A stretch of 64,000 nt of DNA, from the NCBI RefSeq assembly GCF_032362555.1, contig NC_083513.1, forward strand, positions 11,904,001 to 11,968,000. Direction: 5' to 3'. A program made the translations under genes and the position numbers. Below the pieces are notes generated by a model. That model did not search any database. It had not been told where the DNA came from and saw only the letters and a list, made by a program, of their open reading frames with translations. Shown here piece by piece: positions 6,823-64,000 of this stretch (its first letter is position 1; every line of letters begins with the position of its first letter). This stretch comes from Amyelois transitella. Its lineage: Eukaryota > Arthropoda > Insecta > Lepidoptera > Pyralidae.

Positions 6823-6848
6823 AGGTTTTTTTTTTTTTTTTTTTAGTT

Positions 6849-6883
6849 TTCCCCCGGGTGTTACACCACACCCAGGGGGAGTT
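6849..6883 (-). other. A1 terminal 3' hairpin next to poly(A)
   Basis: In the sense strand the arms CCCCCTGGGTGT and ACACCCGGGGG nearly abut, with about 12 pairs including one G-U wobble. They lie between an AATAAA and the poly(A). The same hairpin, with different wobbles, is present in A2 and A3. Confidence 0.75.
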
Positions 6884-7687
6884 TATTGCCAGTATCCTCT
6901 ATCGTAAACAGAGCCATTGCTTAACAATTTTATTTACATTATGTATGAAAAACTATACTTAACTTAATACTACTCTTAGAGTCTGCTTCTTTTATGCTTG
7001 TTAGTTTTTTATATTATAACTTTTTATCGTGCAACTTTTTATTTTACCTAATATCTTTAATCTAATTTTAAAACTAGTTTATTCTTATTGCCTTTTTTAT
7101 GTTGTCATTATCTTATTTTAACTAATTCAACAACTTGTTTGTTGGATTGGTCAGAGCAGTATTACTTTGTAAGTTTCCTTGTCATTATTATGTTTTTTGA
7201 TTGTTTATTTCTTAATTTTTACATTGTCTATCTTATTACATACTTATAATACGAAGCATTACATACTTATAATACGAAGCATACGCTGACACTGGTCAAT
7301 TGTGAATCATAATTATTTACTTGTTTTATCTATGATACGCTTGATTTGCTACATAGTTAATAGTTTACTGTAGGGTACATCAAAAATGAATTGTCATTAT
7401 GTTTAAAATAAATTATACATTGTATTGTATACGAGTCATAATTAAAATAAATCTGTTTTGTTATTAAAACTTACATTAAATTACGTATTTAAATGTTTGT
7501 ATACATAGTAATTTTTTATTGCCTTACTCTTAACTATTTACCCATCCAGGTCAATTGTCATATACACAAACATGTCCCTTATATATCTATATCTATTTTC
7601 TTTTGTCATTTTGTTAAAATCTTGTTACACTTGTAAAATGATAAAACATAGTAGAAGCATATGAACATATAAACAAACCATGTGTGT

Positions 7688-7726
7688 CTTCGCTCCAACG
7701 GATAATTATTATCCGTTGGTGCGGAG
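7688..7726 (-). other. A1 internal 3' UTR palindrome, 19-nt arms
   Basis: Arms 7688-7706 and 7708-7726 flank a single central base; the core CCAACGGATAAT is perfectly palindromic. The element A2 palindrome (53998-54036) occupies the same relative place with a different core sequence. Confidence 0.8.
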
Positions 7727-7887
7727 CCACCCATGTGTTTGTTGCGCAAACATAACAATGGGTATCCACCAACGTGCCGTAGCATGCCTAAAATATTGCT
7801 CTAATTAATGACACATTTCATCAATATAACAATGTGGAATAGCCACGACACGCCGGTAAGATCCGCAAAATTTATGCTTACGCATAT

Positions 7888-8159
7888 TGTACAATCGGCT
7901 GATTGTAAAAAACACAAAGACGTTTCAAATATCGCCATGGTTTGGGGCTATTCAATAATTTGTTGTGATTTTCTTTGCATTAAAATAATATTGTATTACA
8001 TATAAAAAGGAAACAATTATTGTATTTGATGATGCATTTTTTATTGATATTACAGACTTATGTCAATGGTATAATGATGGTTGTCAAATATTTCTTTTTC
8101 TTTTTTTTTTAAATAAAAATTAGGCCAAAAACAAAATTAAGGTTTCATAAGATTGAACA
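7888..8159 (-). repeat. 3' LTR of the BEL/Pao element
   Basis: 272 bp. It matches 14226-14497 with no difference that I can see by eye, including a 10-T run. It is preceded in the sense strand by the polypurine tract GGTGGGCGGAA (8160-8170); a second GGTGGGCGG occurs further upstream at about 8248-8256. Confidence 0.93.
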
Positions 8160-8464
8160 TTCCGCCCACCATGGACAGAATGTCCATAACATTATGTATG
8201 TGCATATTAACACCATTATCTAATAACAAAAAATCAACAACAGAAACCGCCCACCATGAAGATAAAGGTGATAAATAAAGTGGACTGTATACATAACTTA
8301 AGTAAAAAGAAATTGATTTCATGGTGAGTAAAATTTAAATAATTAAATTCATATAATCTCCTTAAACTTGAATTCATGACACAAAAATTGCTTGACACTG
8401 ACTCGTCATAAATTTCAAAATTAAATCAGTATTTGAATAAACAAATAAAACAAAATGCTAACAT

Positions 8465-11400: not shown

Positions 11401-13627
11401 CTTTCACTACGGCATGATGAGGTAAGTATACAAATGTTGATTTAATTTCATTTTCAGGAATTACCTCCATATGACCTAATTCTACATATTCATTTATTAC
11501 ATTTGCATACTGTATTTTTAATTCAGGATTTCTAATTAATCTTTTTTCCAGATATTCAAATCGTTTTGTAGCAATCGCCAATGTATCTCCATATTGACAT
11601 TGCGGATCTTCATTACGGAAGGGAAGTTTGACAATGTATCTACCTTCGGAATCCCTTGTTGTAGTACTCGCAAATATCTTTTCACACTTCTCTTCTTCCT
11701 CTGTCCATCTTTTTTCTTGACATAACTTGAGCTCTTCTTCCAGCTCCCAAAATTTCTGCAGCAGATTATTATCTTCTACGGCATGCATGCACTGGACAAA
11801 GGTATGAAAATTTTTATTACATTCTTCTACATCAACAGATACCCTACCAGATAATATCCACCCCAACTTTGTATTTTGGGCAATTGGCATTTCTGGACCA
11901 CTCCTAATAAATCCTTCTTCTATTATTTGACAATACACTTCCGCACCTAGAAGTATGTCTACTTTATTAGGAGAGTTGAATGTTGGATCTGCTAACCTGA
12001 TTTTGGGCAGGTTTGACCACCTCTGCACTGCAATTTCCTTGTCAGGCAGCAATGTGGTGATAGTTTTAATAACGTGAGCTCTAACTTGAATAACGAAGTC
12101 TGGGTTGATGAGGGATTGAATTTTAAAATATACGATATATTTTGACATCATCAATGGATCCTTATCACCACCCAACCCCGACACATAACTCTTGCATTGT
12201 TTCTTCGGCAGCCCAAGAAGCTGAGCTGCGGACTCCGTCAAAAACGAAGCTTGTGATCCTTGGTCAATAAGAGACCGAAGAGTTATGCGTGTGCCTGATT
12301 GCGATATAGCATCTACCAAAGCCGTTGCAAGCAAAACATGGCTTTGTATATTAATGTGACATGAAGTAATATTCTTACACGATTCGTCTTGTTTAACAAT
12401 AACTTCAGATGAATTATTTTCAGTTGGTACCGAACTAGGAACATTACTCGCTTGCGATAAAATAGTATTCAAATGAAGAAGCGAGTGATGTTTCTTATGA
12501 CAGATTCTGCACTTGGTTGGTACACGACACGAATACACCGCATGGTTTGAATTAAAACAATTGAAACATAGTTTCCGAGATTGTACGAAATTACAACGTG
12601 TTACTGGCTCCTCCTTAGAGAATTTCTTACAGTTAAACAACTTATGGCTTTCGGAGCAAAACGGACATTTATTCGATTCTGTAACATGTAATACCTTAGT
12701 TTTCGGAACATTTTTTGAAACCTTATTATCAAGAAATTCAAGTGACCTAAACCTTTGCTGTAGAAATTCTGTGAATTGATTATAACTTGGTAAATTATCC
12801 TGCAATTCACTTAACTTCGATTCCCACAATTTACGAGACTCAGTATCTAACTTCAAACACAATATGTAAATTACGATCATGTCCCATGAATCAGTTTGTA
12901 AACCTAGATTTTTGAGGGCATTCATACATTCGTTGCTGGTATCTAATAACTCTTTTAATGCACTTGCAGACTCAGTTGTAACATTTCTTTGGCTCATAAA
13001 TCGTTTTAGGACTGAGTTTGCAATGAAGCGTTTATTATTGTATCTGTTTTCTAACTGATCCCAGCAAACTACATAATTATCACTAGTAATGGGCACATGT
13101 CGCAATAATTGTTCAGCCTCACCAGACAAATAAGATTTTAAATAATGTAATTTTTGTACATTGTCTAAAGATCGATTAGTATGCACAAGAGACATAAACA
13201 AATCTCTAAAACTTGTCCACTCAGCATAGTTACCGTAAAATGTGGGAATTGTAATTTTTGGAAGTTTCACACTACTGTATGAATTTATTTTAGAATCGTT
13301 TTCGCAGACATTAGAAGTAGTTGGTATGACAGGTTTAATTTGACTTAATTTTTCTTTCAGTACCGCTTTGTAGTCAAAATACAATTCTTCTGTGACTTCA
13401 TAAACAGCACATTCATCATATTTGGCTTTTTCTAAATCCTCACTATCGTACTCAGCTATGAGTTTGGTGTGAGTATCCAAAAACATAGACCATTGTGACT
13501 CCAATGCTTCAAGTCTTGTTTCAATATAAGATTCAGTCAACCGCTCTTTAGGAGATTTTTTGAAATTACTAAAAGCTCTACCGATTGTTTTGTTAGTGTT
13601 AATCTGAACCTTAATTAGAGCATTCAT
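8465..13627 (-). CDS. BEL/Pao Gag-Pol polyprotein (1720 aa)
   Basis: One uninterrupted frame. Domains in order: a Gag segment with the Pao-type TFYGNYAEWTSFRDLF stretch (about 127), then Cys/His knuckles CPFCSESHKLFNC (about 320) and CFNCFNSNHAVYSC. An aspartic protease follows (LIDQGSQASF, about 452), then RT with YMDD (about 873) and RNase H (CDASNDAYAAVVY about 1050; TDSTVVLAW). Next come the integrase zinc-binding segment (about 1320-1370) and the D,D,E core (GVDYAGP about 1423, HSDNGTNF about 1487, GGLWEAG about 1540), and a DUF5641-like C-terminus. All catalytic residues I can check are present. Length is normal for Pao-type single-ORF elements. The protein should assemble particles, copy the RNA and integrate the cDNA. 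Confidence 0.95.
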   Translation of the reverse strand: MNALIKVQINTNKTIGRAFSNFKKSPKERLTESYIETRLEALESQWSMFLDTHTKLIAEYDSEDLEKAKYDECAVYEVTEELYFDYKAVLKEKLSQIKPVIPTTSNVCENDSKINSYSSVKLPKITIPTFYGNYAEWTSFRDLFMSLVHTNRSLDNVQKLHYLKSYLSGEAEQLLRHVPITSDNYVVCWDQLENRYNNKRFIANSVLKRFMSQRNVTTESASALKELLDTSNECMNALKNLGLQTDSWDMIVIYILCLKLDTESRKLWESKLSELQDNLPSYNQFTEFLQQRFRSLEFLDNKVSKNVPKTKVLHVTESNKCPFCSESHKLFNCKKFSKEEPVTRCNFVQSRKLCFNCFNSNHAVYSCRVPTKCRICHKKHHSLLHLNTILSQASNVPSSVPTENNSSEVIVKQDESCKNITSCHINIQSHVLLATALVDAISQSGTRITLRSLIDQGSQASFLTESAAQLLGLPKKQCKSYVSGLGGDKDPLMMSKYIVYFKIQSLINPDFVIQVRAHVIKTITTLLPDKEIAVQRWSNLPKIRLADPTFNSPNKVDILLGAEVYCQIIEEGFIRSGPEMPIAQNTKLGWILSGRVSVDVEECNKNFHTFVQCMHAVEDNNLLQKFWELEEELKLCQEKRWTEEEEKCEKIFASTTTRDSEGRYIVKLPFRNEDPQCQYGDTLAIATKRFEYLEKRLIRNPELKIQYANVINEYVELGHMEVIPENEIKSTFVYLPHHAVVKEDRTTTKVRVVFDASCPGKNGVSLNSELMLGPKLQLDLRHIIMRWRVHPICLCTDIVKMYRQIKVTDEDTYFQCIVWRDNPNDKLKHLRNLRVTFGTASAPYLAVKALQQNAKDEAADFPVASQKILTDFYMDDFLSGCEKVEDGKKLYLESKELLKRGGFELQKWTSNSEDLLKAINEKQAEEKVSLKIDNVLKILGLTWNQSTDNFEYSVNPLPADKPVTKRKVISEIAKLYDPLGWLAPAIIVAKIFIQKLWISGIGWDDMLPEKLLKDWSTYRNDLLLLRDITIPRWINTYRNSCIQELHGFCDASNDAYAAVVYIRVIDKDGNSAVHLITSKTKVAPIKQVRIPRLELCGAVLLSKLLQEVSGVLDISKENIYAYTDSTVVLAWLSCHPGKWKTFIANRVSHILTNMDRNQWTHVRSEDNPADVASRGIKPSKLKNASIWFTGPNWLKERQIKKETNRIYETDLEKKVCHVGVCNQQINEQNNNEIIIKFSSLRKLIRVVSYCKRFRKVKIVKENWLTSEELREALNTCIKIVQKESFNEELSDVNKKGYVNRKSKLTSLNPFLDDAGILRVGGRLERANIDMSAKHPIILPDKSHFSSLIIADAHEKTMHGGPQLTLNYLRSRYWILNAKTNVKLYIRKCVTCVRYAVNTRDQLMGQLPNARVEFSRPFYHTGVDYAGPINMRVSKGRGTKSYKGYICLFVCMSTRAVHLEAVSDMTTSAFLAAFRRFVARRGHCAHLHSDNGTNFVGAAKELKTLFHNEKSYFVKEIAESLAVENTSWHFIPPHAPNFGGLWEAGIKSTKHHLKRVIGDATLTYEELSTVLTQIEACLNSRPISQLSTNPHDPTPLTPGHFLIGEPLVLVPDVNYENSNVSSLKRWQLTQRMVQGFWKRWSQEYLTQFHNRYRWSYQKAEPNVGDIVLVKEDGLPPGKWLLGLILQKFPGLDGITRVVNIKCKGSIIKRPVNKLCVLPVLK

Positions 13628-14225
13628 GGTTTATGTTTAAGTTACAATAGTTTGAAATTGAAGCCAAATTTTTTTTTTTTTTTTTTAAAGTCGAAAAATT
13701 TTCTAAGTCCTAAATCAAAGATGAAAATTTTACAAGTGTTTAGAACCTTGTCACAATAAAACCGCTAGGAAATTGGGCATAGATTCCTCGACTGAACACT
13801 TTTCTTAAAACTATTCTAAGTCCATACAGTACTACACTAATTTCCAAATATTTTCTAAGTAAATTTCTTCTTGTCTTTAAAGTTCAATTTTGCTACCACT
13901 GAATCGAATGAAAAAGTACTCACAATTGTCCGGCACGTCACTTACACTCGCACATGCGTAGTAGGTGTATCCGCTTACTTTCTCGTTCACTGTTGACTTC
14001 TCATCCACTGCTGGGCGAGTATGCGCTTACTGTTTACAATGCTCTCTTCACAACGCAATCGATAATAAACTTCGATTGAATCACATGGACACCACTTAAG
14101 CATTTCCTGCTGAAACTTTGTGAAAGTCGCACAGTGTTCGCCCTTGACAGCAAACTACTGCCCGTGGGTGCAAACGAGAACCTCATATACACAGTACCAA
14201 CCAAGCATCCCGCTCAGAAGGAACA

Positions 14226-14497
14226 TGTACAATCGGCTGATTGTAAAAAACACAAAGACGTTTCAAATATCGCCATGGTTTGGGGCTATTCAATAATTTG
14301 TTGTGATTTTCTTTGCATTAAAATAATATTGTATTACATATAAAAAGGAAACAATTATTGTATTTGATGATGCATTTTTTATTGATATTACAGACTTATG
14401 TCAATGGTATAATGATGGTTGTCAAATATTTCTTTTTCTTTTTTTTTTAAATAAAAATTAGGCCAAAAACAAAATTAAGGTTTCATAAGATTGAACA
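14226..14497 (-). repeat. 5' LTR of the BEL/Pao element
   Basis: 272 bp, apparently identical to 7888-8159. Its sense start TGTTCAATC supplies the new C-terminus and stop codon of the A1 Gag ORF. Confidence 0.93.
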
Positions 14498-15902
14498 CAT
14501 ATGCTATCCTGGATCTGGCGAGAGCCTCCCACCTTTGCCTGACCTGACACGCGGAACTAAAAGCGTTGTGATTACTCACCTCGTTTCCGTCCGCGCGGCA
14601 GTTCAGGCACGATGGGATGGCTCCCGCCATCCAGGCCTGGCACACAGCCCTCTGGTGCTCGCCACCACAGTGGCAGCACCTCTCCACCTTCTCTTTGCAG
14701 TGGCGCCTGCCGTGGCCGTAGCCCAGGCACATCGAACACTGGACCAGCGGAGAGTAATCCTCCGCCTGGATCCGCTGCATGTCGATGCGCACTGAGCCGG
14801 CCTCGACCACTGCGCGCCACAGCTTGGGGGGGACACTAATTACGGTATGTTCTAGCAGCGGGTTTCTTGCCTTTTTTCTAAATTTCACTTCGATAGTTTT
14901 TTCCTCATCTTTGAAGTCCTTAAGTAATTTGCAATTTTGCCCCGTTAATTTTGATATAACTTGTTCGTTGGTGTTTTTTAACATGTTTTTGAGGATGAGT
15001 AGGGGGTTTTTATTCTCAACTTCTTTTACCCGCAAATTTTTTATTTTTTCTATTCTGGTTTTTAATTTCTGTCTACCCTCTTTTGATTCGCAACTTATTA
15101 TTAATTTCCTATCCCGCGTCTTTCTCACCCTTTCTATCCTCACCCAATCCCCGCCTTCTCCTGCCACTTCCCTTATCCGCTCCATGACCACGTCACCCGT
15201 TTCCATTCCTGTCTTGTCGTCGACAATAACGGAATGGAGGGTGACGGGCTTTTCCTGAGAAGTAGCCACGGCCTGTGCGTATGTCGGGGTATGTGAGGCT
15301 ATTGTGGATGTTCTTCCATCAGCTTGATTCTGGCGGTCCATTGTTTCCTTCATCTCCCGTATACTTCTTGCGTTTTCTTCTAGTTTATCCACCAGCGGTT
15401 TTAGGTACGTTTTAAGTTCTCCGAATTGGGTCTCATGCTGTGGGATAGGGGAGGTCTGGGTTCTTATACTCGGTCGTTGTCCCGGCGTCATGTTCTTTGG
15501 CTCCTGGCACGCAGCCAGGTCGCACACGAGGTCGTCTACCTGTCTGATCTTGCTTTTGACTGAGTCTTTAGTTATTCTTTTTAGTCTCAGTGCAGACTCG
15601 ACCTCTTCGTTAATTGCGTCCAGGAGATTTCTAATGCTAACACATAGATCAATTCTATCGTCGTCCGTCAGGATTTTACGTCTGTTTTCTTCCTTTAGGA
15701 GGGGAGTTTTTGGGAAGCACTGAATGAACCTGCTCCTCTTGTTAGGGGTCGCCCATTCCTCCTCTGAAGACAATCTGACGGGGGAGTCCGACGGGGAGTC
15801 ACCCTGGCTACTGAATTGGGTGGGTGATATTTGGAATGCATTTTGGTCTGTAGGTGTGTCTTTAAATGACACAGACTTTGGTGTGCGAATCATCATTGTC
15901 AA
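14475..15902 (-). CDS. A1 Gag (ORF1), last codon replaced by LTR sequence
   Basis: 475-codon frame. The N-terminal half is charged and helical-looking (about 60-200). The middle part, with VRIERVRKTRDRKLIISC and NPLLILKN, is shared with TRAS-type Gag. Three CCHC-type knuckles follow from about residue 390 (CSMCLGYGHGRRHC; CCHCGGEHQRAVC; CLNC...C), then RQRWEALARSRIAY. The BEL/Pao insertion falls in the last sense codon: the native end, by comparison with A2, is ...RIAYA and stop, while here it is ...RIAY plus VFNLMKP from the LTR. The protein is therefore essentially complete. Its expected role is RNA binding and delivery of the RNP to telomeres (known for TRAS/SART ORF1 proteins). No ORF2 follows. 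Confidence 0.9.
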   Translation of the reverse strand: MTMMIRTPKSVSFKDTPTDQNAFQISPTQFSSQGDSPSDSPVRLSSEEEWATPNKRSRFIQCFPKTPLLKEENRRKILTDDDRIDLCVSIRNLLDAINEEVESALRLKRITKDSVKSKIRQVDDLVCDLAACQEPKNMTPGQRPSIRTQTSPIPQHETQFGELKTYLKPLVDKLEENARSIREMKETMDRQNQADGRTSTIASHTPTYAQAVATSQEKPVTLHSVIVDDKTGMETGDVVMERIREVAGEGGDWVRIERVRKTRDRKLIISCESKEGRQKLKTRIEKIKNLRVKEVENKNPLLILKNMLKNTNEQVISKLTGQNCKLLKDFKDEEKTIEVKFRKKARNPLLEHTVISVPPKLWRAVVEAGSVRIDMQRIQAEDYSPLVQCSMCLGYGHGRRHCKEKVERCCHCGGEHQRAVCQAWMAGAIPSCLNCRADGNEVSNHNAFSSACQVRQRWEALARSRIAYVFNLMKP

Positions 15903-16394
15903 GGTTAAAATATAAATTTGTATAAGTTGTAAAGAAAAAGGACAGAAATAAATACAATACTGTATATTTAAGGGAACTAAAATATGGAAGGAGGCAAAAC
16001 GCCAGTCAATTTCTTAAAATCTTAACTATGGACTAGACACGAGGTAAATAGTGTACTTATACCTAAGAGTGGGTCTCCCAATATTGCACTGCACTTATTT
16101 TATGGGCCAGAGCGGCTTTGTCACAACGTCCAAGCACATCCACTTAGTCTTGTTGTTCCGTCTTGTGTGTAGTTAGTTTCAGGCACCGAGCCGTCCCCCA
16201 ATCTCGAAGTGAAGACAGACTCGTGGCCGAATCCAGCAAAATCCTCTCAATCCTCGTCCAACCGTAGACGTAGATGGAGTCCAGGTATTTTTTATTACGA
16301 TCTGAACACAAGGGAGCACTTATTTCCACTTTCACTAACTTTGTACACACTTAAAAAATTTTTTGCTTTTAATATTTTGCGGAGCGCATCGGAG

Positions 16395-16428
16395 CACGTC
16401 TGCACTCTACGACGGCTCGAAGCAGACT
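16395..16428 (-). promoter_or_regulatory. A1 5'-terminal module with Inr- and DPE-like motifs
   Basis: If the first element base (A, complement of 16428) is +1, the start reads CCAGTC across the junction, close to the insect initiator TCAGTY. AGACGT occupies +28 to +33, exactly matching the DPE consensus RGWYVT at its usual position. The first ~48 bases are nearly identical in A2 although the rest of the leader has diverged. Together these suggest an internal RNA polymerase II promoter, as known in jockey-like elements; function is inferred. Confidence 0.55.
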
Positions 16429-16555: not shown

Positions 16556-16655
16556 TTTTTTTTTTTTTTTTTTTTTTAAGATGCTAAGTGATTTGTTTGG
16601 TAATTAATTTTTATTAAATGGGTATGCTGTATTGTTGTATGATAAGTGTAGCGTT

Positions 16656-16689
16656 GGTGGGTCTCTGCTATTTGATACAGATACCCACC
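16656..16689 (-). other. Hairpin in the 3' UTR of D
   Basis: 12-nt arms 16656-16667 and 16678-16689 with one mismatch and a 10-nt loop, about 80 bp before the poly(A) junction. Confidence 0.6.
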
Positions 16690-16912
16690 GTCGCTATTTA
16701 TCTTGAGCGATGTTTTTATGTTGAGGTGCCATAGATCTGCTTTTTTTGATTTGCATTTGTGACTGTTATGATTAAATGTAATATTGAATTTTGCGAGTCG
16801 ATTTCGCATTTCGACAAGGCGCTAGAATTAGAATTACAGTTACAATTTTAAATTACAAGGCTCTTCCTTCTTCTTAAGGCGCATCTTTGCTTCAAGGGCG
16901 GCCAACGTGCTG

Positions 16913-18439
16913 CTAATAGCCATAGTCAGTGCTATCCTGAAGAGCTTTCATGGCATTGACTATGCGCGGGCATGCTTTGTTGTCGGTGGCTGAATGGCTA
17001 GTGTTGGCGCTACGAACTGACTTGCAGTTATAACAGCACGTCTTATTCGGATCGGCGCGAACGGGGCACGAGTTGATTTGGTGCTCAGTGGAGCCACAGT
17101 GGGCGCACGGGTGGGACTCAGCGGTGCACTTGTTATTAGTGTGCCCGAACTGTAGGCACTTATAACATTGCACGAAGCGGCTGAAGTCCGCCACGTGCAC
17201 CCGCTGGTGCTCCACGTTCGCGCGCTCCCCTTCGACCAGCCTGCGCCGGATCGCCGGGGCCACCTCCAACACCGCGTTGTAAAAGCGCTCATTTCTATTG
17301 TTCAAGAGGAAGCAAAGGCGGATTTCTTCGCTGGGGATTTGGTTCTGGTGGCTTATGATGTCCACCAGTTCCTCCCTCTGGACCTCTTTGCTAATCCCCT
17401 TCAAGATGATGAGAGGGCGACGGAGCTTCGACTCTTCAGCTGCAATGCCGGGGATGGTGTTCACTTTTCGGAGGATTTGGTCGCGCTGCTCATTGGTATC
17501 GAACTCTACTTTGAGCATGTTTTGACGCAAGGGCTTTACTTTCGAGGGAGCAAATGTTGTTCTCCGGAATGAGATGTTCTTTTTGAACTCGTCAAGTACG
17601 ACTGGCTGCTGTTTTTGTTTATCGCTAGTCTCCTTAGCTTTGATGATGATGGAGGGCAAGGTGCGCGAGGGAGGAGGAATGCTCTTAGGGGGGGAGGGCG
17701 TCGCCACGGCCGCGGCGAAGGATTTTGCAGGCGCTGGTGGAGAGGGCGCCGGCGTCGTCGGCGTCATGGCCTTAAGTTCCTCACGGATACTCTCCCGAAT
17801 AATAGAGAGCAGTGTGCTCTGGTCCGGGAGGATCTCCGGAGTCGGAGGAGTCGGCGCAATCGCGACCGTTGGCCCGGTCTCCTTGACCTTCACCAACGCC
17901 TGCGCAGATCTTTGTATCTCCTGCGCCGCCGCCGCAATGAGCCGCTTGTTGGTAGCAGTGACGCTCTTTCCTTCGTTAACAGCTTTGTTGATTGTGTACG
18001 TTAGTTTTGTAACTACCGCCATGAAGGTGTCGATACTCTTCACATCTTCAGAACGGGCAGGTAGTTCAATAATCATTGCGCTAGAAGATTTGCTGGACTT
18101 GGTTGCAGTTTTACGAGCGGGCACAACTTTGGCGGGAGCTTGTGAGGAGGCAGTAGCGTCGCTCACTTCGGGTGTTTCGGTGTCAGACATGTACCGAAGT
18201 TGGGGCATGTCTGATTCGGGAAAAAATTGGAGGTCTACACTAGGAGTTAAGAGATCCTCCTCATCCATCTCACTTATGGGCGCTATGTACGGTCGAGTGC
18301 GTTCGGGGGGGCTAGCCGTAGTTGGGGAGGCCCTGGAATTGCCTGCCACTGGTGAGGAAGACCGCGAAGGGCGGTTGGGGGGTGCAGGAGGAGGTCGAGT
18401 GGTCGCCTCCTTACGAGTCGGAGACCGGGTGAGCCCCAT
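16913..18439 (-). CDS. D Gag (ORF1, 508 aa)
   Basis: The N-terminal ~280 residues are rich in Pro, Ala, Ser and Thr and look disordered. A globular part at about 290-410 contains VKPLRQNMLKVEFDTNEQRD and RRPLIILKGI, like the RRM/PRE_C2HC region of non-LTR Gag proteins. Three knuckles follow from about residue 422: CYKCLQFGHTNNKC, CAHCGSTEHQINSC, and a longer CYNC...H...C. The ORF is intact and ends in DYGY. Expected function is binding the element's RNA. It resembles Gag of R1/jockey-like elements more than TRAS Gag. The start is the first ATG of the frame; the antisense strand also carries a long GC-rich open frame, which I treat as a shadow. Confidence 0.85.
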   Translation of the reverse strand: MGLTRSPTRKEATTRPPPAPPNRPSRSSSPVAGNSRASPTTASPPERTRPYIAPISEMDEEDLLTPSVDLQFFPESDMPQLRYMSDTETPEVSDATASSQAPAKVVPARKTATKSSKSSSAMIIELPARSEDVKSIDTFMAVVTKLTYTINKAVNEGKSVTATNKRLIAAAAQEIQRSAQALVKVKETGPTVAIAPTPPTPEILPDQSTLLSIIRESIREELKAMTPTTPAPSPPAPAKSFAAAVATPSPPKSIPPPSRTLPSIIIKAKETSDKQKQQPVVLDEFKKNISFRRTTFAPSKVKPLRQNMLKVEFDTNEQRDQILRKVNTIPGIAAEESKLRRPLIILKGISKEVQREELVDIISHQNQIPSEEIRLCFLLNNRNERFYNAVLEVAPAIRRRLVEGERANVEHQRVHVADFSRFVQCYKCLQFGHTNNKCTAESHPCAHCGSTEHQINSCPVRADPNKTCCYNCKSVRSANTSHSATDNKACPRIVNAMKALQDSTDYGY

Positions 18440-18957
18440 GGTCTCGTCAGTAAACTATTGAACTTTAATAAAATATGTCAATCAAAATCCAACTATATAA
18501 TTAAACTATTGCTTCTAAGAGGGTGTTATCTATTGAAATACTATTTTTGGGACCAGAAGAACACTATGAACTAATCGGAAGAAAGAAAAAATACGAGGGA
18601 AAAAAGTGGATTTTTGGTTTCGACTTACGTCGGCGAGCAGAATTTACCTAGCTGATGAAACTAGGGTGGGCGGGGGGGCGAATTTTTCGCGTATTTTGTC
18701 CGGGAATGGCTTAAAATGACGGGGTAGGCAGCCGGAACACTAATCAGAAGTAATTAGGGGTAGGTTCGGAAGAAAAATTTGGTCTATGGACAAAAATGAG
18801 TATTTGGATGGAAGAAAAACCGTTAAAGAAGAAAAATGACAAAATAGTATGAAAAATTCGGCGGGATGGAGAAAGCTGGTATGCAGAACTGATGGCGGCA
18901 ACAAGACGAAGAGATCAAGGTATCACAATCAGGGGTGGACACACTAAAGATGGGATC

Positions 18958-18994: not shown

Positions 18995-19042
<48 letters not shown>

Positions 19043-19043
<1 letters not shown>

Positions 19044-19136
19044 ATGAGCAGGTGGTGAAATCCATCATGGACAGCCTGGGAAGGAGGACCCAGGTAGTGC
19101 CGGACTCTTACCGTGCTAAAACACCACCTGCTCATG
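19043..19136 (-). other. B 3' end: perfect 15-bp stem enclosing an inner hairpin
   Basis: CATGAGCAGGTGGTG at 19043-19057 and its exact complement at 19122-19136. Inside, CCTGGG (19075-19080) and CCCAGG (19089-19094) form a second hairpin. The outer arm ends about 5 bases from the poly(A). It is a likely RT recognition structure, by analogy with 3' UTR signals known for SART1. Confidence 0.8.
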
Positions 19137-19323
19137 GAAACTCCATCAGGAGGGACCCTGCGTGGGAGGACAGGGGTCTTTTCTATCTATTCTTCTTGAT
19201 TTTTTATTCCTAATTATTATTGTTGTGTTAAATATTATTTTTGTAAATTTTGTATTTAAAATTATTGTTCTTCATTTATTATTCTATTCTTTTATTTTTT
19301 TTTTTTTTTTAACTTTCAATTCT

Positions 19324-22300
19324 TTATTTCTTATTTCTTTTTATTGTTCTTAAGGCCAATTTTGTGCAGTAGTTTAAAAATTTTTCTCTTATTTTTTTGT
19401 CTCTTATGATTATTGCCAGATTTTCTTTTGTGACTTTTTCTTCGATCTCAATCTCCAGGTCATTCCTGTCTTTGTCATGTACAGCGCATTCGGTAAGGAC
19501 ATGGTCGATACTTTCCTCGTTTGCAGGGTCACAGGCACAGGTAGGGCTCTCCTTGCATTTGAACCTGTTCAAATATTGCGAGAACCCGCCGTGTCCCGTG
19601 AACACCTGCACAAGCACGGGGGTCAACGCAATCTTCCTTATTGTTTTGTACGCCTCTCCTGCGTCGGGAAAGAACAGCTTAGTGGTGGATGCCGTTTCCC
19701 CCTCCACGTAGCGCCGGTTCCATTCGTCAATGGTATCCATCCGGATCTGCCGCTTGACGAACGAGACCGGACATCTGTCGTAGTGGGGTCGAACCCTGCC
19801 GAGCGCAGCGCTCTTGGCCAGGTCGTCAGCCCTTTCGTTCCCCTCCAACCCGGCGTGAGCCTTAATCCAAAATAAGTTTATTATTTTGCCCAACATCATG
19901 GCCTCTTTTATGTTGGCTCTCGCAGTTAACGCCAGGTTGTGCAGGGAACTGCTGTCAGAGACAGTTTCGAGAGCCGACCTGGAGTCACAATATATATTGC
20001 AGCTAAGCGCTGAGCTCCGAAGGGCCCGCTCGGTCGCCACAGAAAGGGCCAACAGTTCGGCCTGATACACCGTGCACATGTTGTCGAGCTTCAGTTTCTT
20101 GGTACTGGTCTCCGCAGCGCCTTCCCATACGGTCAGCGCCGCGCCGACTTTCCCATCGTGCTTGCTCCCATCTGTGTAGATGTGGAGCTGCGCGTGCTGC
20201 TGCTCGTCAACCTGCGCACGGTCTTCCAGGCACGAAAATTTGAGTCCCAATCTTCCGGCCGGGTGAGGCGCTTCCAGAAAATCGACGGGCCTCTCTATCT
20301 CCCGGTCTCCTACCACTCGCCGAGATATACCCTTCTTCACTTCGTAAAGAAGGGCTGCCTCCCTGATCCTCATGTCCAGGGGAAGCAGTCCGGCGAGTAG
20401 CAGCGCCGCGTTCAGAGAGACGGTGCGATACGCTCTGACGATCTTCTGTGCGAAGCCTCGCTGCACCACGTTTAGTTGCTTCTGCACCCCCAGCTTGTGC
20501 GTGGCCGCTGCCCACACGCTAGATGCGTACATAATGACCGGCTCGACCACCGCCACGTATATGGTCCTTATCACCTCCGAGTTCAAGCCCCAGCCAATCC
20601 TGGCCGCCCTGGACAGCTGCTTATATAAGTTTAACGCCTTTCGGCATATGTTCGCCACATGGGCGTTAAACGTGAGCTTGCTGTCCAAGGTGAGGCCAAG
20701 GATTTTGATTTCCTGGGACATTTCAATGGATACCCCGCCCATGCTCAGAATTGGGGTGTCGTATTTAAGTTTATTGGTCAGCACCATTGCCTTTGTTTTC
20801 AATGGTGCAAACCTCAACTTATTTTCGACTCCCCACCTCCGAACATATTCGAGGGCTCCATTGGCACGTCCCTGGACTTCCTGGGCCGTGTCCCCGGAGA
20901 ATACGAGGACCACGTCGTCAGCGAACGCTTGACAGTAGTCGCCCCGGCCATCCAGCCCCACGAGCAGCGGGTCCAGAAGCAAATTCCAGAAGGTCGGGCC
21001 CCCTATTGACCCTTGGACACATCCCTTCGAGGTTTCGCTGACACTCTCCGCTCCGGCATATCTAACGCGAACCCTCCTATCCCCCAAATAACTATCAACC
21101 ATTCGGCGTAGATTAGGAGGGCACTGCGTCTCCGCCAGTCTGCACTTAATGGCCGGCCACCACGCGTTATCGAAGGCTCCCTCTATATCCAAGGATACCA
21201 TCAGGACGAGTTTTTTATCCTTAATCCTCTGCCTGATGTGATCCACCAGGACATAGAGGGAGTCCTCGGTACAGCGCTGCGGCATAAAGCCGTACTGACG
21301 GCGGCTCATGCCGGGGAGGACGTGCCAGCGAATCCTCGCCACCAGCATCTTCTCCAAAATCTTACCGAGCACCGGTAATAATCCGATGGGTCGGTAAGAC
21401 TTTGGATTCGCGTAGTCATCCTTTCCCGGCTTTCGCAGGACGGCGACCACCGCCTCCTTCCACGCAGCGGGGAAGTGCCCGAGTTTCAAGCACTTGTTGT
21501 ACAGCGCCAGGAAGATGTCGGGGCCCAGCGCGATGGCCGCACCACAGACATCGGCGGTAAAGCCGTCGGGTCCCGGCGCCTTTTTCGGGTTGAAGCTCGA
21601 CGCGGCGCTCTCCAGCTCCTCCATTGTGAATGGTGGGTCGCAAGTCTCACCCTGCTTCCCCTCATTCACAATTTTGGAGCTCTCTCTCGTGAGTTTATGC
21701 CCCGCGTCGTCTCCCCCCGGATCATCTTTTGGGAAAAAGGTTTTAGCCAGTAGACCCGACGACTCTTCCCCGCTAAGGACCCTCCCGTTTTGCACGAGAG
21801 GTGTGTCCTCCTCCCTGCTTGCGGTGCGGCCGATCACCCTGTAGATCCCCTCCCACATCGTCTCGCGGTCCTGCTTCTCGCAGAACCGCTTCCAACTGGC
21901 GGTTCGAGCCTGCTCCGACGCCAGGCGGTACTCTTCTTTGGCTTTCAGATACTGCTCGACCACCCATGCACGGCGGGTCGGCCCGGCGCTCGCCACCCTA
22001 TGCTTCTTAGTGGTCACGGCTTTCCGCATTTCGGCCAGCTCATCATTCCACCAAGGCATCTTCAGTCGCCCTCCGGTGGAGGCGAGTTTGGGGATTGACA
22101 TCTCGCACGCTCGCTCTATTGTGCAGTTCAATTTTGATAATTTTAAATCCAAATGTGTTGTATTGTTAATTTTGACAATTTCCGAATGGTTTATGTTGTT
22201 TTCCAACCATAATTGGGCCAATTTCTCACGAAATTGGTCCCAATTAGCTTTTTTTGTGTTATATTTGCGAGTCGTGCGCTTGATGTCCGTCCCCCTCGCC

Positions 22301-22902
22301 TTCACCAGATTTACCTCGAATAGAAGAGCGTTGTGGTCAGAGCTGGTTATGCCCGTGTCCACTCGCCAGCCGTCGACGTGGCCGAGCATACCCTCCGTAC
22401 ACACCGTGATGTCGACGCAGCTCTGAAAGCGTTTCCCAGCTCTGTACGTGTCGAAAGTAGGCTCGGACCCCCTGTTGAGAATGTGCAGGTCCATCTCTCC
22501 TAGCGCCGCCGCCAAGTCCTCCCCCCTGTGATCCGTTCGCACACTTCCCCACCACGGGTTCCATGCGTTGACGTCTCCCCCCATCACGACCATGTCCGTC
22601 CCAATCTCCGCCATGATCCGCTCCATCCACCGGATACACGGGTCGATGGGGCCGTCCCCGTCGAAGTACATCGACACCACCCCAATCTCCCACGCACTCG
22701 TCCTCAGCCTCGCAACAGCGAAGTTTGGGGTCGTGAGCGCCGGAAACGGGGTGATGTCGATGCCCCCGTCGAGCAGTACAATGGCGGCCTTGTTCACAGA
22801 CTGTGGGCCGGCCGCAGCACATTGTACCACCCGAGTTCCGGGTTCAACCTTCATTCTTCCCGTGTTCCCGGTGTAGGGCTCTTGGACCATGGCGAAGGCC
22901 AT
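19324..22902 (-). CDS. B ORF2: endonuclease, reverse transcriptase, RNase H, Cys motif
   Basis: 1192 codons from the first ATG. The endonuclease shows VQEPYTG, GGDVNAWNPWWGS and SSDHNALL. RT has KAPGPDGF, SLDIEGAFDNAW, the FADD box (about 660) and CVQGSIGGP. A full RNase H lies at about 905-1035 (YTDGSK, QAELLALS, YCDSRSALE, HAGLEGNERADD). A C-terminal Cys-His motif (CAC...H...C) starts at about 1115. The frame is open upstream of this ATG: without a start codon it reads back through QANLQRSKLATSELL, the conserved first endonuclease motif, into the last nine codons of ORF1, where a TAG closes it. The real protein must therefore begin upstream, by frameshift or non-AUG reinitiation. The SART elements here lack RNase H. 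Confidence 0.93.
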   Translation of the reverse strand: MAFAMVQEPYTGNTGRMKVEPGTRVVQCAAAGPQSVNKAAIVLLDGGIDITPFPALTTPNFAVARLRTSAWEIGVVSMYFDGDGPIDPCIRWMERIMAEIGTDMVVMGGDVNAWNPWWGSVRTDHRGEDLAAALGEMDLHILNRGSEPTFDTYRAGKRFQSCVDITVCTEGMLGHVDGWRVDTGITSSDHNALLFEVNLVKARGTDIKRTTRKYNTKKANWDQFREKLAQLWLENNINHSEIVKINNTTHLDLKLSKLNCTIERACEMSIPKLASTGGRLKMPWWNDELAEMRKAVTTKKHRVASAGPTRRAWVVEQYLKAKEEYRLASEQARTASWKRFCEKQDRETMWEGIYRVIGRTASREEDTPLVQNGRVLSGEESSGLLAKTFFPKDDPGGDDAGHKLTRESSKIVNEGKQGETCDPPFTMEELESAASSFNPKKAPGPDGFTADVCGAAIALGPDIFLALYNKCLKLGHFPAAWKEAVVAVLRKPGKDDYANPKSYRPIGLLPVLGKILEKMLVARIRWHVLPGMSRRQYGFMPQRCTEDSLYVLVDHIRQRIKDKKLVLMVSLDIEGAFDNAWWPAIKCRLAETQCPPNLRRMVDSYLGDRRVRVRYAGAESVSETSKGCVQGSIGGPTFWNLLLDPLLVGLDGRGDYCQAFADDVVLVFSGDTAQEVQGRANGALEYVRRWGVENKLRFAPLKTKAMVLTNKLKYDTPILSMGGVSIEMSQEIKILGLTLDSKLTFNAHVANICRKALNLYKQLSRAARIGWGLNSEVIRTIYVAVVEPVIMYASSVWAAATHKLGVQKQLNVVQRGFAQKIVRAYRTVSLNAALLLAGLLPLDMRIREAALLYEVKKGISRRVVGDREIERPVDFLEAPHPAGRLGLKFSCLEDRAQVDEQQHAQLHIYTDGSKHDGKVGAALTVWEGAAETSTKKLKLDNMCTVYQAELLALSVATERALRSSALSCNIYCDSRSALETVSDSSSLHNLALTARANIKEAMMLGKIINLFWIKAHAGLEGNERADDLAKSAALGRVRPHYDRCPVSFVKRQIRMDTIDEWNRRYVEGETASTTKLFFPDAGEAYKTIRKIALTPVLVQVFTGHGGFSQYLNRFKCKESPTCACDPANEESIDHVLTECAVHDKDRNDLEIEIEEKVTKENLAIIIRDKKIREKFLNYCTKLALRTIKRNKK

Positions 22903-23002
22903 CCTCTGCTTATCTGCCTCCAGCAGGAGTTCGCTAGTTGCTAGCTTACTCCGCTGGAGGTTTGCCTGGACACTTTTATATAGCTTCTGTACTGGGCTGC
23001 CC

Positions 23003-24445
23003 TTAGCAATAAGCCACAGTGGCTCTCGCTAATTCCTCCCACCTTTTTCTGACAGGGCAGGCCTCACTGAAAGCAACATGCTGCCCGCTAGTGACCTTGG
23101 CCAACCTACAGTTCCTGCAAGTCGGCGGGTCACCCGCAACCCTGGCGGGGCAGTCGGCTCCCAGATGCGGACCCCCGCAGTGACAGCACAGGTCGACAGG
23201 CTCCTTACAGAGTCGCCGACCATGTCCATACCCCAGGCAGCGCGTGCACTGGACCAGTGGAGACTGGTCTTCGGCTCGCACCGTCTGGAGGTCAATGCGA
23301 ATGCGGCCCGCATCCACGACCCGCCGCCACACCACGGGCGCCGCGCTGAGCACCACGTTGCTGCAGTGAGGGTTTCTCACCTTCCTACGGTAGCGCACCG
23401 TGAGCCGGTCCTCCCCCTCGCCGAGGCCCTGAAAAACACCCCGGTTCTGGTTCCGGAACGCCCCCAAAATATCCTCGTCCGAGTTTACGTTGAGAACGCC
23501 CCTCAGAACCAGAAGCGGGTCCTTGTTTCTCACCTCCTCGACAACGAGGTGAGTTCCGGCCGCCTGCAACCTTTCCTTGAGCCTTGCCCTGTCCTGCTCT
23601 GTTTCGCAGCCCAGTACCACCTTCCTGTCCCGTGCCTTCCTAACCTTTCCTATTGTAATCCAGCCTTCTTTTGCATTGACTGCCTTTCTTACTTTCTCCA
23701 ACACTTCATCCCCGGTCTCCTCCTCCACAGTCGACGCGACCACAACGGAGTGCAACGTAGGATGCTCCGGAACTCCGGGTCTTGTGTGGTTCCCTCCTGC
23801 TGCGGCTACAGTGGCATATGTTAATTTGTTATTTTGCAGGAGTATATTACTATTTTCTTTTATTATTAATATATTCTCTTCTTGCTTCTCCATATTCTCC
23901 TGAATTTTTTCTAAAAATTTTTCATTTTCCTTTTGCTTATTGATTAGTTCTGTAATTTCTTGTAATTTTATACCGTTTTCCTTTATTATTTGTTTATTTT
24001 CTATTAAGTGTTTTATTATTTCGTTTCCATTGTCACTGTAGACCTCTTTCTCAGTTTTATTATCCCCACCTTTGTCTTCTCTCCTTCCCTCTGCTAGGAC
24101 TTCCTCGTATTCCAGAATAATCTGGAATAAGTCCTCCAGGGCTGTTTTTACGTTAGCTTTTATGTCCGACCTTGTATTCCTGGTTTCGTTCAGCAGGCCT
24201 ATTGCCATGTCCTTAATCGCGTTTGCTCTTCCTAGTTTTGTTTTGGGCACGGTTTGCTGTACCGGTTTTGGTGTAATTACTGTTTTGGTTTGTGCCATAG
24301 GTTTGGTTTTTGGTTTCGGAGCTGGTTGTTTAGCGATACCTGAACTACTTGGTGGACTACCGCTTGCGATAATAGCCTCGAGGTTCTCAGCGCTTTTCCT
24401 CGCTGGAACCTTCGGCGCATTCGGGGGGGAGTATGGGCAATACAT
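23003..24445 (-). CDS. B Gag (ORF1, 480 aa)
   Basis: A Lys/Glu-rich coiled-coil-like stretch lies at about 115-215, followed by the TRAS Gag core (IGKVRKARDRKVVLGC; NKDPLLVLRG). Three knuckles begin at about 398: CTRCLGYGHGRRLC, CCHCGGPHLGADC, CRNC...H...C. The end RKRWEELARATVAYC matches RQRWEALARSRIAY of A1/A2, making B the closest RT-bearing relative of the Gag-only elements. It overlaps the ORF2 open frame by about nine codons. Expected role: RNA binding and targeting of the RNP to telomeres. Confidence 0.92.
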   Translation of the reverse strand: MYCPYSPPNAPKVPARKSAENLEAIIASGSPPSSSGIAKQPAPKPKTKPMAQTKTVITPKPVQQTVPKTKLGRANAIKDMAIGLLNETRNTRSDIKANVKTALEDLFQIILEYEEVLAEGRREDKGGDNKTEKEVYSDNGNEIIKHLIENKQIIKENGIKLQEITELINKQKENEKFLEKIQENMEKQEENILIIKENSNILLQNNKLTYATVAAAGGNHTRPGVPEHPTLHSVVVASTVEEETGDEVLEKVRKAVNAKEGWITIGKVRKARDRKVVLGCETEQDRARLKERLQAAGTHLVVEEVRNKDPLLVLRGVLNVNSDEDILGAFRNQNRGVFQGLGEGEDRLTVRYRRKVRNPHCSNVVLSAAPVVWRRVVDAGRIRIDLQTVRAEDQSPLVQCTRCLGYGHGRRLCKEPVDLCCHCGGPHLGADCPARVAGDPPTCRNCRLAKVTSGQHVAFSEACPVRKRWEELARATVAYC

Positions 24446-24645
24446 TGTAAAAGTGGGGAAGTCAATGTTAAAATTAAAATTAAGTTTGTATAAGTTTTAA
24501 ACAGTAATTAAATATAACAATAAATAAAATTAAAAATTTTTTGATAATTCAGATTAATTCTTATAAATAAATAAGTCACTTACAAGCTACTCAATTCTTT
24601 AGTACTGTAGGTACTTGTCGGTTTTCTCTTTTGTTTTAGTCTGTT

Positions 24646-24676
<31 letters not shown>

Positions 24677-53213: not shown

Positions 53214-53249
<36 letters not shown>

Positions 53250-53997
53250 TTTTCCCCTGAGTGTTACTCCACACCCAGGGGGAGTTTATTGCAATATCTC
53301 TTTGTTGTATGACAAAGACATTTTCAGACATGATTATATACATTCTGTATGATAAAAACTATGACTTAACCTATTACCTCACCTAGTCTGCTTTATATTT
53401 ATACAATTGATGGGTTCTAAGTCTTATACATAACATAACGTAGTTTTATATACTATTTATTTCTAACATTTGGTTACCAGACAATTTATTTCTATCTTTG
53501 GTCATTTTTGTAATTAACTAACTCACTAAATTTTATGTCGCGTCTTTGCTCTTTTCTTAATATATTTAGATACTGCTTAAAATTTTATAAATCACATATT
53601 GATATTCCTTTATAATTTTTCTTCATTTGTTTATTTTGCATGATTTGCTAATTTTAAGTGTACAATTTAATACCTGCTAGATACCTTGTTAAAGGTATTT
53701 CTTTTATTTATGTACCGTCATTTTATTAAAATCATATTGTTGTCAAGACTTAATTATCTTTGCATTTTAGTACGTTGTTGATGGTATTTCTTTTATTTAA
53801 ATACCGTCATTTTGTTAAAATCCAATTTATGTCAATACTTATTACTATTTTGTATATTACCTTACTTCTAAATAAAACGAATACGAGTCAATTTTTAAAA
53901 TGTATACCTATTTCTACTTAACCACTATAACAGCCTCGTAAAGTCCTTATATTATGTAAACGGATAAAATTATTGCATAAAATTGCACTTCGAGTGT

Positions 53998-54036
53998 CTT
54001 TGCGTCAGCGAATAATGATTATTTGCTGATGCAGAG
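53998..54036 (-). other. A2 internal 3' UTR palindrome, 19-nt arms
   Basis: Arms 53998-54016 and 54018-54036 with 16 Watson-Crick pairs of 19; the three exceptions read G-U on the + strand and A-C on the sense strand. Same place as the A1 palindrome, with a different core sequence. Confidence 0.75.
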
Positions 54037-54185
54037 ACCTATGCACCATTGTTTGCGTAGGGTCACGTCCCACGGCCTACGCGCTCATGTCGCAGCATGC
54101 CCATCTTAATTGCTCTATTAATTTGCACATTATTAATCTAGCAATTGGTGTGCCGCGGCACGCCCGGCAAACCTGAGACCCTGAC

Positions 54186-55583
54186 TCACGCGTATGCAAT
54201 TCTGGACCTGGCGAGAGCCTCCCACCTTTGCCTGACCTGACAGGCGGAGCTGAAGGCGTTGTGATTGTCACTTACCGCTCTTCGGTCTGCCCGGCAGTTC
54301 AGGCACGATGGGACGGCTCCCGCCATCCAGCCTTGACACTCCGACCTCCGATGCTCCCCGCCGCAGTGACTGCACCTCTCGGTTGTCTCCCTGCAATGCC
54401 TCCTGCCGTGGCCGTAGCCCAGGCACATCGAGCACTGGACCAGCGGAGAATAGTCCTCCGCCTGGACCCGCTGCATGTCGATGCGCGCTGAGCCGGCCAC
54501 GACCAAGGTCTTCCACATTTTGGGAGGCACGCTCAGGACAATGTGCTCCAACAGCGGGTTTCGAGCCTTCTTCCTGAACTTAAATTCGATGGCCATGTCT
54601 TCCTCCTTAAGGTTCTCAAATATCTTGCTATTTTGTTGCACTAATTTATCGATTATTTCCTCGTTTTTGTTTTTCATGATAACATTTTTCAAGACAATAA
54701 GGGGGTTCTTGTTATGCACGTCTCTTGCCTGCAACTTCTCTAGGCCATTTATCCTGTTCTTGAGCTTCTCCCTTCCTTCCTTTGTCCTACAGCTTATAAT
54801 GAGCTTCCTGTCCCTTGTTTTCCGTATCTTCTCTATCCTAACCCAGTCCCCGCCCTCTCCCGCCACTTCTCTAATTTGGTCCAGCACCTCGTCACCTGTT
54901 TCCACTCCTGCCTTGTCGTTGACAATAACGGAGTGGTAGGTGACGGATGGTTCCTTCACATTGGCGACGACCTGCGAATACGTTCGGGGCTGCGTACCTG
55001 TGTCTGCTCCTGACTCGGTCCGACTGTTGAAAGCCTCCTTGAGATCCCGTAAGGTCTTTGAGTTCTCTTCCATCCGGTCGGTCAACATCTTCAGATGGTT
55101 CTTGATGTCCCCGATTTTCACTTCTTCCTCAGGAGCAGGGGAAGTCTGCGTTCTCACGCATGGATTTTGACCTGGTGTGAAGTTTTTCAATTCCTGATAA
55201 ATGGCCAGATCACACACCAGGTCGTCCACCACTTTTAACTTTTGGATAACTGAGTCTTTGGTCGTTCGCTTTAATCGAAGCGCCGTTTCGACCTCGTTAA
55301 TGGCAGCTTCCAGGAGGCTTCTGATGTTGCCGCCCAACTTATCCCGATCGTCATCTGTCAAAATCTTCCTCCTGTTTTCCTCTCTTAGGAGCGGGGTTTT
55401 TGGGAAATGTTGTATAAATTTACTCCTGGTTATGGGAGTAGCCCATTCCGCTGCAGGTACACTGGGAGGGGAGTCTGTGAGGGAGGAGTCACTCGGCAGT
55501 TGAGTGGGAGAAAGAATGTTGTCATCGTGGTAGGAAAGTGTCTTTTTAAAAGACACGGTCTTTGGTATTGGGTTAAGAGTCAT
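54186..55583 (-). CDS. A2 Gag (ORF1, 465 aa)
   Basis: Intact ORF with native end ARSRIAYA. N-terminal PKTVSFKKT, also seen in A1 (PKSVSFKDT); a helical region at about 60-190; a TRAS core (VRIEKIRKTRDRKLIISC, NPLIVLKNV); knuckles from about 382 (CSMCLGYGHGRRHC, CSHCGGEHRRSEC, CLNC...H...C). It differs from A1 Gag at many positions, particularly in the N-terminal half, yet neither has a frameshift or premature stop, which suggests selection on the protein. No second ORF. Confidence 0.93.
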   Translation of the reverse strand: MTLNPIPKTVSFKKTLSYHDDNILSPTQLPSDSSLTDSPPSVPAAEWATPITRSKFIQHFPKTPLLREENRRKILTDDDRDKLGGNIRSLLEAAINEVETALRLKRTTKDSVIQKLKVVDDLVCDLAIYQELKNFTPGQNPCVRTQTSPAPEEEVKIGDIKNHLKMLTDRMEENSKTLRDLKEAFNSRTESGADTGTQPRTYSQVVANVKEPSVTYHSVIVNDKAGVETGDEVLDQIREVAGEGGDWVRIEKIRKTRDRKLIISCRTKEGREKLKNRINGLEKLQARDVHNKNPLIVLKNVIMKNKNEEIIDKLVQQNSKIFENLKEEDMAIEFKFRKKARNPLLEHIVLSVPPKMWKTLVVAGSARIDMQRVQAEDYSPLVQCSMCLGYGHGRRHCRETTERCSHCGGEHRRSECQGWMAGAVPSCLNCRADRRAVSDNHNAFSSACQVRQRWEALARSRIAYA

Positions 55584-55934
55584 GATTTTTTAAAAAGTAA
55601 ATTTGTATAAGTTGTAAAAGAGATTATGTATATCATAAAAATATGATAAAAGAAAAAACTAAGGTCACGATTTTAAAATAATAAAAAGAAAATTATTTAC
55701 AGTTTCTTATTCTAGGATTGCACGTGTTCTTATGCCTTTACGCAAGGCCTGCAGATCTGGATCTAGATAAATCCAGGAAAATCTTCACAATCCTGTCCAG
55801 CTTGGAGTAGTCCTTGGAAACCAGGTATTTATACCGTGACACTGAGCACTTATGATCACTAATTTTCAACTTAATTTACACAATTTTTTATTTTTCGCAA
55901 TTTTTCACTATTTTTATTCACGGAGCGCGTCGGA

Positions 55935-55968
55935 GCACGTCTGCACTCCACGACGGCTCGAAGCAGAC
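55935..55968 (-). promoter_or_regulatory. A2 5'-terminal module
   Basis: Nearly identical to the A1 5' end: GTCTGC...GCAGACGTG. It carries the same DPE-like AGACGT. It starts one base later than A1, so the initiator A is missing at the junction. Confidence 0.5.
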
Positions 55969-63701: not shown

Positions 63702-64000
63702 TTTTTTTTTTTTTTTTTTTTTAAGTTTTCCCCCAGGTGTTACTCCACACCCAGGGGGAGTTTATTGCCAATCTCTCTCTGTGTGGGTTACAGAGACATT
63801 TTTATACATTTTTATTTGCATTGTATATGATAAACTATTACATTACATTACACTGTCATAGTCTGCTTCTTTTACAATATCTGTTAGAGTTTGTTATTAT
63901 TATTTTCAGTATAATGTTTTTAACACAATTCTATTTTTAACATTATTATTACTATTAAATTAGTAGCTATTATATTATACAACATTTTTATGGCTTTTTA
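63702..64000 (-). mobile_element. A3: 3' end of a further A-type element, cut by the window end
   Basis: Poly(T) 63702-63722, then the A-type terminal hairpin, AATAAA and the AGTCTGCTTCTTTTA stretch also found in A1. Its coding part, if present, lies outside. Confidence 0.85.

Follow-up and report, generated by a model that had tools for sequence, protein, structure and literature searches.

Gag-only LINEs are already known, and the missing reverse transcriptase (RT) of HeT-A is usually discussed alongside the loss of telomerase in Drosophila. HeT-A is described as a telomeric element that contains only Gag and a long 3' UTR, lacks pol and is thought to use the RT of TART or TAHRE (PMC5537684). 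Here, we describe element A, of which three copies (A1, A2 and A3) were detected in a subtelomere of the moth Amyelois transitella, and which displays the same features, i.e. Gag only, no pol, a long 3' UTR and a telomeric location. However, HeT-A forms head-to-tail arrays devoid of telomerase repeats, whereas A is TRAS-derived and lies inside (TTAGG)n at the TRAS site, and the likeness is drawn from the published description of HeT-A. The suggestion of the first-pass annotation that A may be a lepidopteran counterpart of HeT-A is thus sound for its way of working (Gag only, 3' UTR, telomeric), but not for its membership (TRAS lineage, telomerase-type repeats).

Three other described systems are close to A. 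With the TRAS elements of Lepidoptera, as described in PMC12036569 and PMC4700185, A shares Gag type, leader, orientation, register and poly(A), but it lacks ORF2 (AP endonuclease and RT), displays a structured 3' UTR directly after Gag, and its Gag does not end in Cys. HAL1, the half-L1 of mammals, is likewise an ORF1-only LINE derivative, and PMC5753468 reports that it arose several times, as did the Gag-only A and C described here; unlike A, HAL1 is L1-derived and neither telomeric nor site-specific. Finally, R2 and R2/R1 SIDEs are site-specific, internally deleted elements moved by an RT recognizing their 3' end (PMC3414825), as A would be, but SIDEs join 5' and 3' ends, whereas A keeps a constrained Gag gene. 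In the literature searched, which mostly excluded subscription journals, no Gag-only, TRAS-derived clade under selection inside telomerase-type repeats was found.

Anatomy of element A

The window, i.e. the whole stretch of 64,000 nucleotides that was analysed, lies at 11.904-11.968 Mb of a 12.01-Mb contig (genome of 327 Mb in 33 contigs) and is a subtelomere with (TTAGG)n blocks. SART-like elements of the window are on the plus strand with 3' ends An|AGGTT, and minus-strand elements have 3' ends An|CCTAACC, which is the type of orientation described for lepidopteran TRAS (PMC12036569). The 5' junction register is alike in all four elements concerned (A1, A2, C and B), as is the 3' register in all five (A1, A2, A3, C and B), the latter being less stringent, since as many as two bases of the telomere repeat can be masked by poly(A). 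In its CCTAA orientation, its single register in the telomere repeat and its poly(A), A agrees with TRAS. A2 and many genome copies have (TTAGG)n on both sides, and (GGTTA)n starts directly after the A2 5' end at 55968.

Table 1. Coordinates of element A and of its neighbours in the window (protein features in residues of A2 Gag).
Feature	Position	Strand	Remarks
A2, complete Gag-only TRAS-type element	53214..55968	-	
A2 T-run (poly(A))	53214-53247	-	
A2 3' UTR	53248..54185	-	938 nt, ~30% GC, without ORF2 remnant
A2 terminal hairpin	53254..53282	-	directly before poly(A)
A2 AATAAA	53285-53290	-	
A2 post-stop structured region	53980..54185	-	fold z -4.0
A2 second hairpin	about 54002-54032	-	in post-stop region
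A2 Gag	54186..55583	-	465 aa, sole ORF of A2
A2 Gag helical region	residues 77-193		predicted
A2 Gag RRM-like domains (two)	residues about 214-302 and 292-379		predicted
A2 Gag CCHC knuckles (three)	residues 384-397, 404-416, 427-448		
A2 5' UTR	55584..55968	-	385 nt, first 60 nt near-identical to A1
A2 leader	55598-55618	-	TTTACAACTTATACAAATTTA
A1 3' piece	6828..7887	-	poly(A), 3' UTR up to 7877, end of Gag
A1 terminal hairpin	6851-6879	-	
A1 post-stop structured region	7665..7877	-	fold z -6.9
A1 second hairpin	7692-7722	-	in post-stop region
A1 5' piece	14503..16428	-	nearly all of Gag ORF and 5' UTR
A1 leader	15913-15933	-	
A3, third A-type 3' end	63704..64000	-	poly(A), terminal hairpin 63730-63758; remainder beyond window
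BEL/Pao element	7888..14497	-	inserted at end of A1 Gag; 272-bp LTRs 100% identical
Element C, Gag-only, at TRAS site	16558..18957	-	Gag 508 aa at 16913-18439
Element B (3' part), TRAS-type	18997..24648	-	5' end may reach 31641
B Gag	23003-24445	-	480 aa
B ORF2	19324-22902	-	1192 aa, EN/RT/RNase H

The two pieces of A1 were analysed separately, with the BEL element lying between them. This BEL/Pao element, flanked by a CATAT target duplication, has an uninterrupted 1720-aa ORF as well as identical LTRs, so its insertion is evidently very recent. When the similarity of A1 and A2 was scored by segment against 300 dinucleotide shuffles, it was highest at the two extremities (z 30.4 for the first 60 nt and 41.3 for the last 170 nt), lower in the remainder of the 5' UTR (z 10.9) and in the first 230 nt past the Gag stop (z 11.2), and absent from the unconserved middle of the 3' UTR (z 0.5); the last 170 nt of A3 also resemble those of A2 (z 43.4). 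A tblastn search with three ORF2 proteins detected no ORF2 remnant in the 3' UTR of A1 or A2 (best E 5.3). Segment scores and tblastn thus confirm that A1 and A2 follow, as had been proposed, one and the same plan (5' end, leader, Gag ORF, 3' UTR, hairpins and poly(A)) without endonuclease or RT. A hidden ORF in the A2 3' UTR was rejected, the longest one lying wholly inside being of 53 aa and antisense, and so was the possibility of a truncated element, both ends being intact and common to copies. The A2 3' UTR also contains, at 53682-53859, a tandem pair of approximately 90 nt (81% identical), each unit with TTTTAA(C/T)AAAATGAC, a motif which occurs once in the otherwise unconserved middle of the A1 UTR (7605-7619).

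A2 Gag is 65% identical to A1 Gag and of TRAS type, with 41% identity to B Gag over 314 aa (E 9.7e-75). It has no Pfam domain, and a sequence search of the PDB yielded no relative (best E 0.81). Its AlphaFold2 model (mean pLDDT 77.3) displays a helical region, two RRM-like domains and the knuckles; the best Foldseek match is a tandem RRM (4ed5_B, E 2.4e-4), in a comparison that yields common RRM-type folds only. The three CCHC knuckles are kept, their Cys and His being invariant in a 50-sequence alignment. A2 Gag was matched by 106 proteins out of 7989 scored candidates; identity in the top five is 41-48%, over 57-81% of the A2 protein, and all matches carrying species names are lepidopteran. 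The last residue is Cys in 100 of these 106 relatives (the other six may be truncated), against none of the 22 open A-type Gags, which end in Ala (13), Val (7), Leu (1) or Ser (1). The viral contig and plasmid collections contained no relative of A2 Gag, and the genome contig and viral contig collections no match to the A tail; as few or no insect records are expected there, these negatives carry little weight.

The post-stop region folds better than shuffles in both A1 and A2 (table 1). To this were added 17 of the 22 other post-stop stretches, giving a structure alignment of 19 copies (18 distinct); those omitted were three near-duplicates and a few further copies. RNAalifold returned a consensus of 33 pairs, derived from the same alignment as was tested, and these pairs are formed in 96.5% of cells, as against 33-49% after a shift of the 3' side by one, two or three columns. 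Changes on both sides affect 15 cells (shuffled mean 4.5; 0 of 500 shuffles as high) and five pairs, the latter number being equalled in 15 of 500 shuffles; in the second hairpin, four pairs show compensatory changes. On the other hand, the number of pair types is not above shuffles (500 of 500 as high), and in the two-sequence test, 27 of 73 pairs of the A1 structure were broken when threaded on A2. The aligned copies indicate that the predicted post-stop RNA structure is conserved, with compensatory changes, across A. At the other end of the UTR, AATAAA and a C/G-rich terminal hairpin are common to A1, A2 and A3. At gathering thresholds, Rfam gave no match in the whole window.

Genome copies and constraint on Gag

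A2 DNA has at least 74 matches in the source genome (40 of 274 candidates scored), mostly near contig ends, of which nine, A2 included, are collinear over essentially all 2755 bp. Copies were counted in 20 genome regions around the best A2 matches, 18 of them within about 85 kb of a contig end and two (C5 and C13) internal; this census is a sample, not every copy, and since it stems from top-scoring matches, a rarer RT-bearing A copy could be missed. It comprises 25 places with an A-type Gag, whose identity to that of A2 is 58-95%; Gags cut by region edges (L014 9268-9801, L018 7735-8181) and copies in L032 and L033 were not added. In 22 places, Gag is open to the stop, 19 of these Gags being complete and three cut short by 5' truncation or a region edge, and it is broken in the other three (L012, L024 and L028). 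The frameshifted Gag of L028 adjoins N and was left out of the tail census; among the remaining 24 places, the A tail is reached after Gag in 22, and the other two run into N.

In 21 of these 22 tail-bearing copies, the stretch from the Gag stop to the tail measures 553-893 nt, matches no RT and contains no sense frame above 70 codons. The last one (L013) has an insertion of about 1.24 kb nested mid-3' UTR, with a 7-nt overlap at its ends; an RT-like fragment found in this copy sits within the nested insertion and was rejected as ORF2 of A. Accordingly, ORF2 was detected in neither A1 nor A2 nor any of the 22 readable genome copies; an ORF2 in most copies with this 3' UTR, which would have told against a Gag-only lineage, was not observed in this sample. 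Six more Gag matches, located outside the census regions, are accompanied on their contig by a tail match, the interval being 359-570 bp. Identical Gag proteins were retrieved from different contigs (L020 and L021; the second copy of L014 and L017), which suggests that copying was recent or that subtelomeres exchanged sequence.

A tree built by a quick method, in which 18 related Gags and that of B were placed alongside 23 of A type, unites the latter in one clade (SH-aLRT 100), on a stem of 1.87 changes per column. This clade holds several supported subfamilies, found on many chromosomes and reaching dS 1.5-2.0 from A2. For dN/dS, 21 full-length Gags were compared (210 pairs; L028, L012, L024 and the short pieces L018, L022 second and L025 left out), of which the 116 pairs with dS between 0.1 and 1 were used. 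Their median dN/dS is 0.124 (range 0.084-0.212; pairs not independent), far from the value near 1 that would have marked Gag as unconstrained, and values for the 18 pairs with dS of 0.1 or less lie between 0 and 0.57. The A1-A2 pair, which is near saturation, gives 0.118 (NG86; bootstrap 0.000-0.186) or 0.223 (LWL85). The intact SART ORFs of the window, taken as a comparison, give 0.10-0.27. In neutral simulations, the Gag frame was kept stop-free in 0 of 300 runs at each of five divergences. A relic status of A Gag was consequently rejected on simulations, knuckle conservation and low dN/dS. As the Gag-only plan is common to the whole clade, it has been kept over time, which supports the earlier view that it did not arise by one recent deletion, and constraint acted on Gag in the Gag-only state.

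Presumed source of the copying enzyme

Element A is very probably an old, diversified and non-autonomous Gag-only clade issued from TRAS and copied via the ORF2 of another element. Its TRAS origin follows from the leader and TRAS-type features shared with B: the leader, directly before Gag, is identical in A1 and A2 over 21 nt, and B matches it at 19 of 21. Since A keeps only Gag and a structured tail, and is nevertheless spread and selected, we infer that it must borrow the copying enzyme of another element. Transcription of A would proceed from its own 5' region, and the Gag made from the resulting RNA, equipped with two RRM-like domains and three CCHC knuckles, would coat that RNA; a TRAS-type ORF2 protein supplied in trans would then recognize the conserved A 3' end and nick the telomere repeat at the TRAS site, and the RNA would be copied in by target-primed reverse transcription.

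The first-pass annotation saw a candidate helper in B, whose endonuclease is closest in the PDB to TRAS1 ORF2p (1wdu, E 1.2e-58); no other element with an RT was found on the minus strand of the window. In favour of B, its insertion register is that of A, its leader near-identical, its Gag similarity to A2 extends over 314 aa, its ORF2 has intact EN, RT and RNase H, and B-type copies occur near A copies (L011). However, the 3' tails are unlike. None of eight tests of the A tail against those of B, C and two SART exceeded the shuffle maximum, nor did any of 15 tests of A tails against B, the B copy of L011 and RT-bearing TRAS of L017, L020 and L021. A2 versus B gave z -0.6 and -0.1 in two runs, A1 versus B equals the shuffle maximum without passing it (24 and 24; 22 and 22), and A3 versus the L011 tail comes close to it (31 against 33); distant A-type tails, used as positive controls, gave z 36-51. 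With the RT-bearing tails of L029-L031, to which blastn did not align the A tail at E 0.5, the comparison amounts to eight RT-bearing tails (B and seven others), among which no element with an A tail was found. This matters because SART1Bm proteins move foreign RNA in trans only if the SART1 3' UTR is present (PMC7265360), and silkworm telomeric elements likewise require their own 3' UTR (PMC4700185). The designation of B as helper, which is compatible with the main explanation, is thus not borne out, and we consider it unlikely.

Other readings concern the status of A itself. A could be a minor, deleted form of an abundant full-length element whose ends it shares, which would account for the absent helper, only best matches having been examined; yet the 20 regions contain no such full-length element, Gag and tail lie 359-570 bp apart in the six further pairs, and the subfamilies are as distant as dS 1.5-2.0 from A2, so that this reading appears very improbable. 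It is barely conceivable that the A copies descend from several full-length TRAS families, each deprived of ORF2 by its own deletion, Gag conservation then reflecting autonomous ancestors. Internal deletion is known in site-specific LINEs such as R2 SIDEs (PMC3414825), and C is a TRAS family of this very locus that lost ORF2 separately; against this, the same Gag-stop-to-UTR junction and post-stop structure are found in all 22 readable copies, across several subfamilies, and Cys ends no A-type Gag. The binding of TRAS ORF1p to ORF2p, reported in PMC4700185, would allow A Gag to be kept mainly to restrain TRAS elements rather than for copying A, but the conserved tail, poly(A), 5' end and register and the many copies show repeated copying of A itself, and we give this last reading very little credit as well.

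Element C and neighbouring sequences

C Gag is 27-29% identical to A Gags over 192-198 aa and has 22 related proteins, including some from Bicyclus and Plodia; all 21 compared reach its last residues. Gag-only copies of C exist elsewhere in L012 (Gag 100% identical, tail 136 nt later), L026 (91%) and L013 (5'-truncated). C-type Gags with an ORF2 directly behind were also retrieved (L017/L030, 64%; L023/L031, 72%), their ORF2 frames being open over at least 929 codons in the pieces examined, and their tails match that of C (81% over 59 nt and 77% over 98 nt); L017 contains a further RT-bearing element whose tail also matches (85% over 104 nt). Since the RT-bearing relatives with C-type Gags share both Gag type and tail with C, the latter may be regarded as a Gag-only derivative of its own, younger than A, for which a plausible helper exists. 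A C-related 5'-end sequence is repeated about every 517 bp in L011 (277-2908, six copies) and L022 (750-2894, five copies), so that some C-related elements have tandemly repeated 5' regions.

The initial finding is thus real and stronger than first described, as it comprises an old Gag-only clade and a second Gag-only derivative beside full-length TRAS elements. It probably reflects an apparently separate HeT-A-like division of labour at telomerase-repeat telomeres, in which ORF2 was lost at least twice in TRAS, C representing a younger stage and A an older, self-diversifying one with its own tail. If so, such a division of labour would not require the loss of telomerase; a Gag-only clade with several subfamilies, under selection in a genome with TTAGG repeats, separates the missing RT from telomerase loss. 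A and C, side by side, would then be a second case besides HeT-A, and allow two questions to be put to the test: why Gag persists in the absence of RT, and to what extent TRAS ORF2 relies on the tail.

The window displays several other features. A 16-bp telomere-like variant unit, TAACGGCGGGTTAGGT, occurs in 51 perfect copies at 6006-6823 and adjoins the A1 3' end. About 7 kb without long ORFs (24649-31641) separate B Gag from the next telomere array; this region, 5' of B Gag, starts with a T-run at 24649, has a second leader-like motif at 24817-24843 and includes a segment of about 4 kb with inverted GGCTTAGACAA ends (26958-30960), which presumably resembles a Harbinger-type DNA transposon. 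A second BEL/Pao-type pol fragment (37-2742, plus strand) lies at the left window edge. Two SART copies on the plus strand (44250-47030 and 56068-57437) are 5'-truncated, and the second is 99% identical to 36570-37983.
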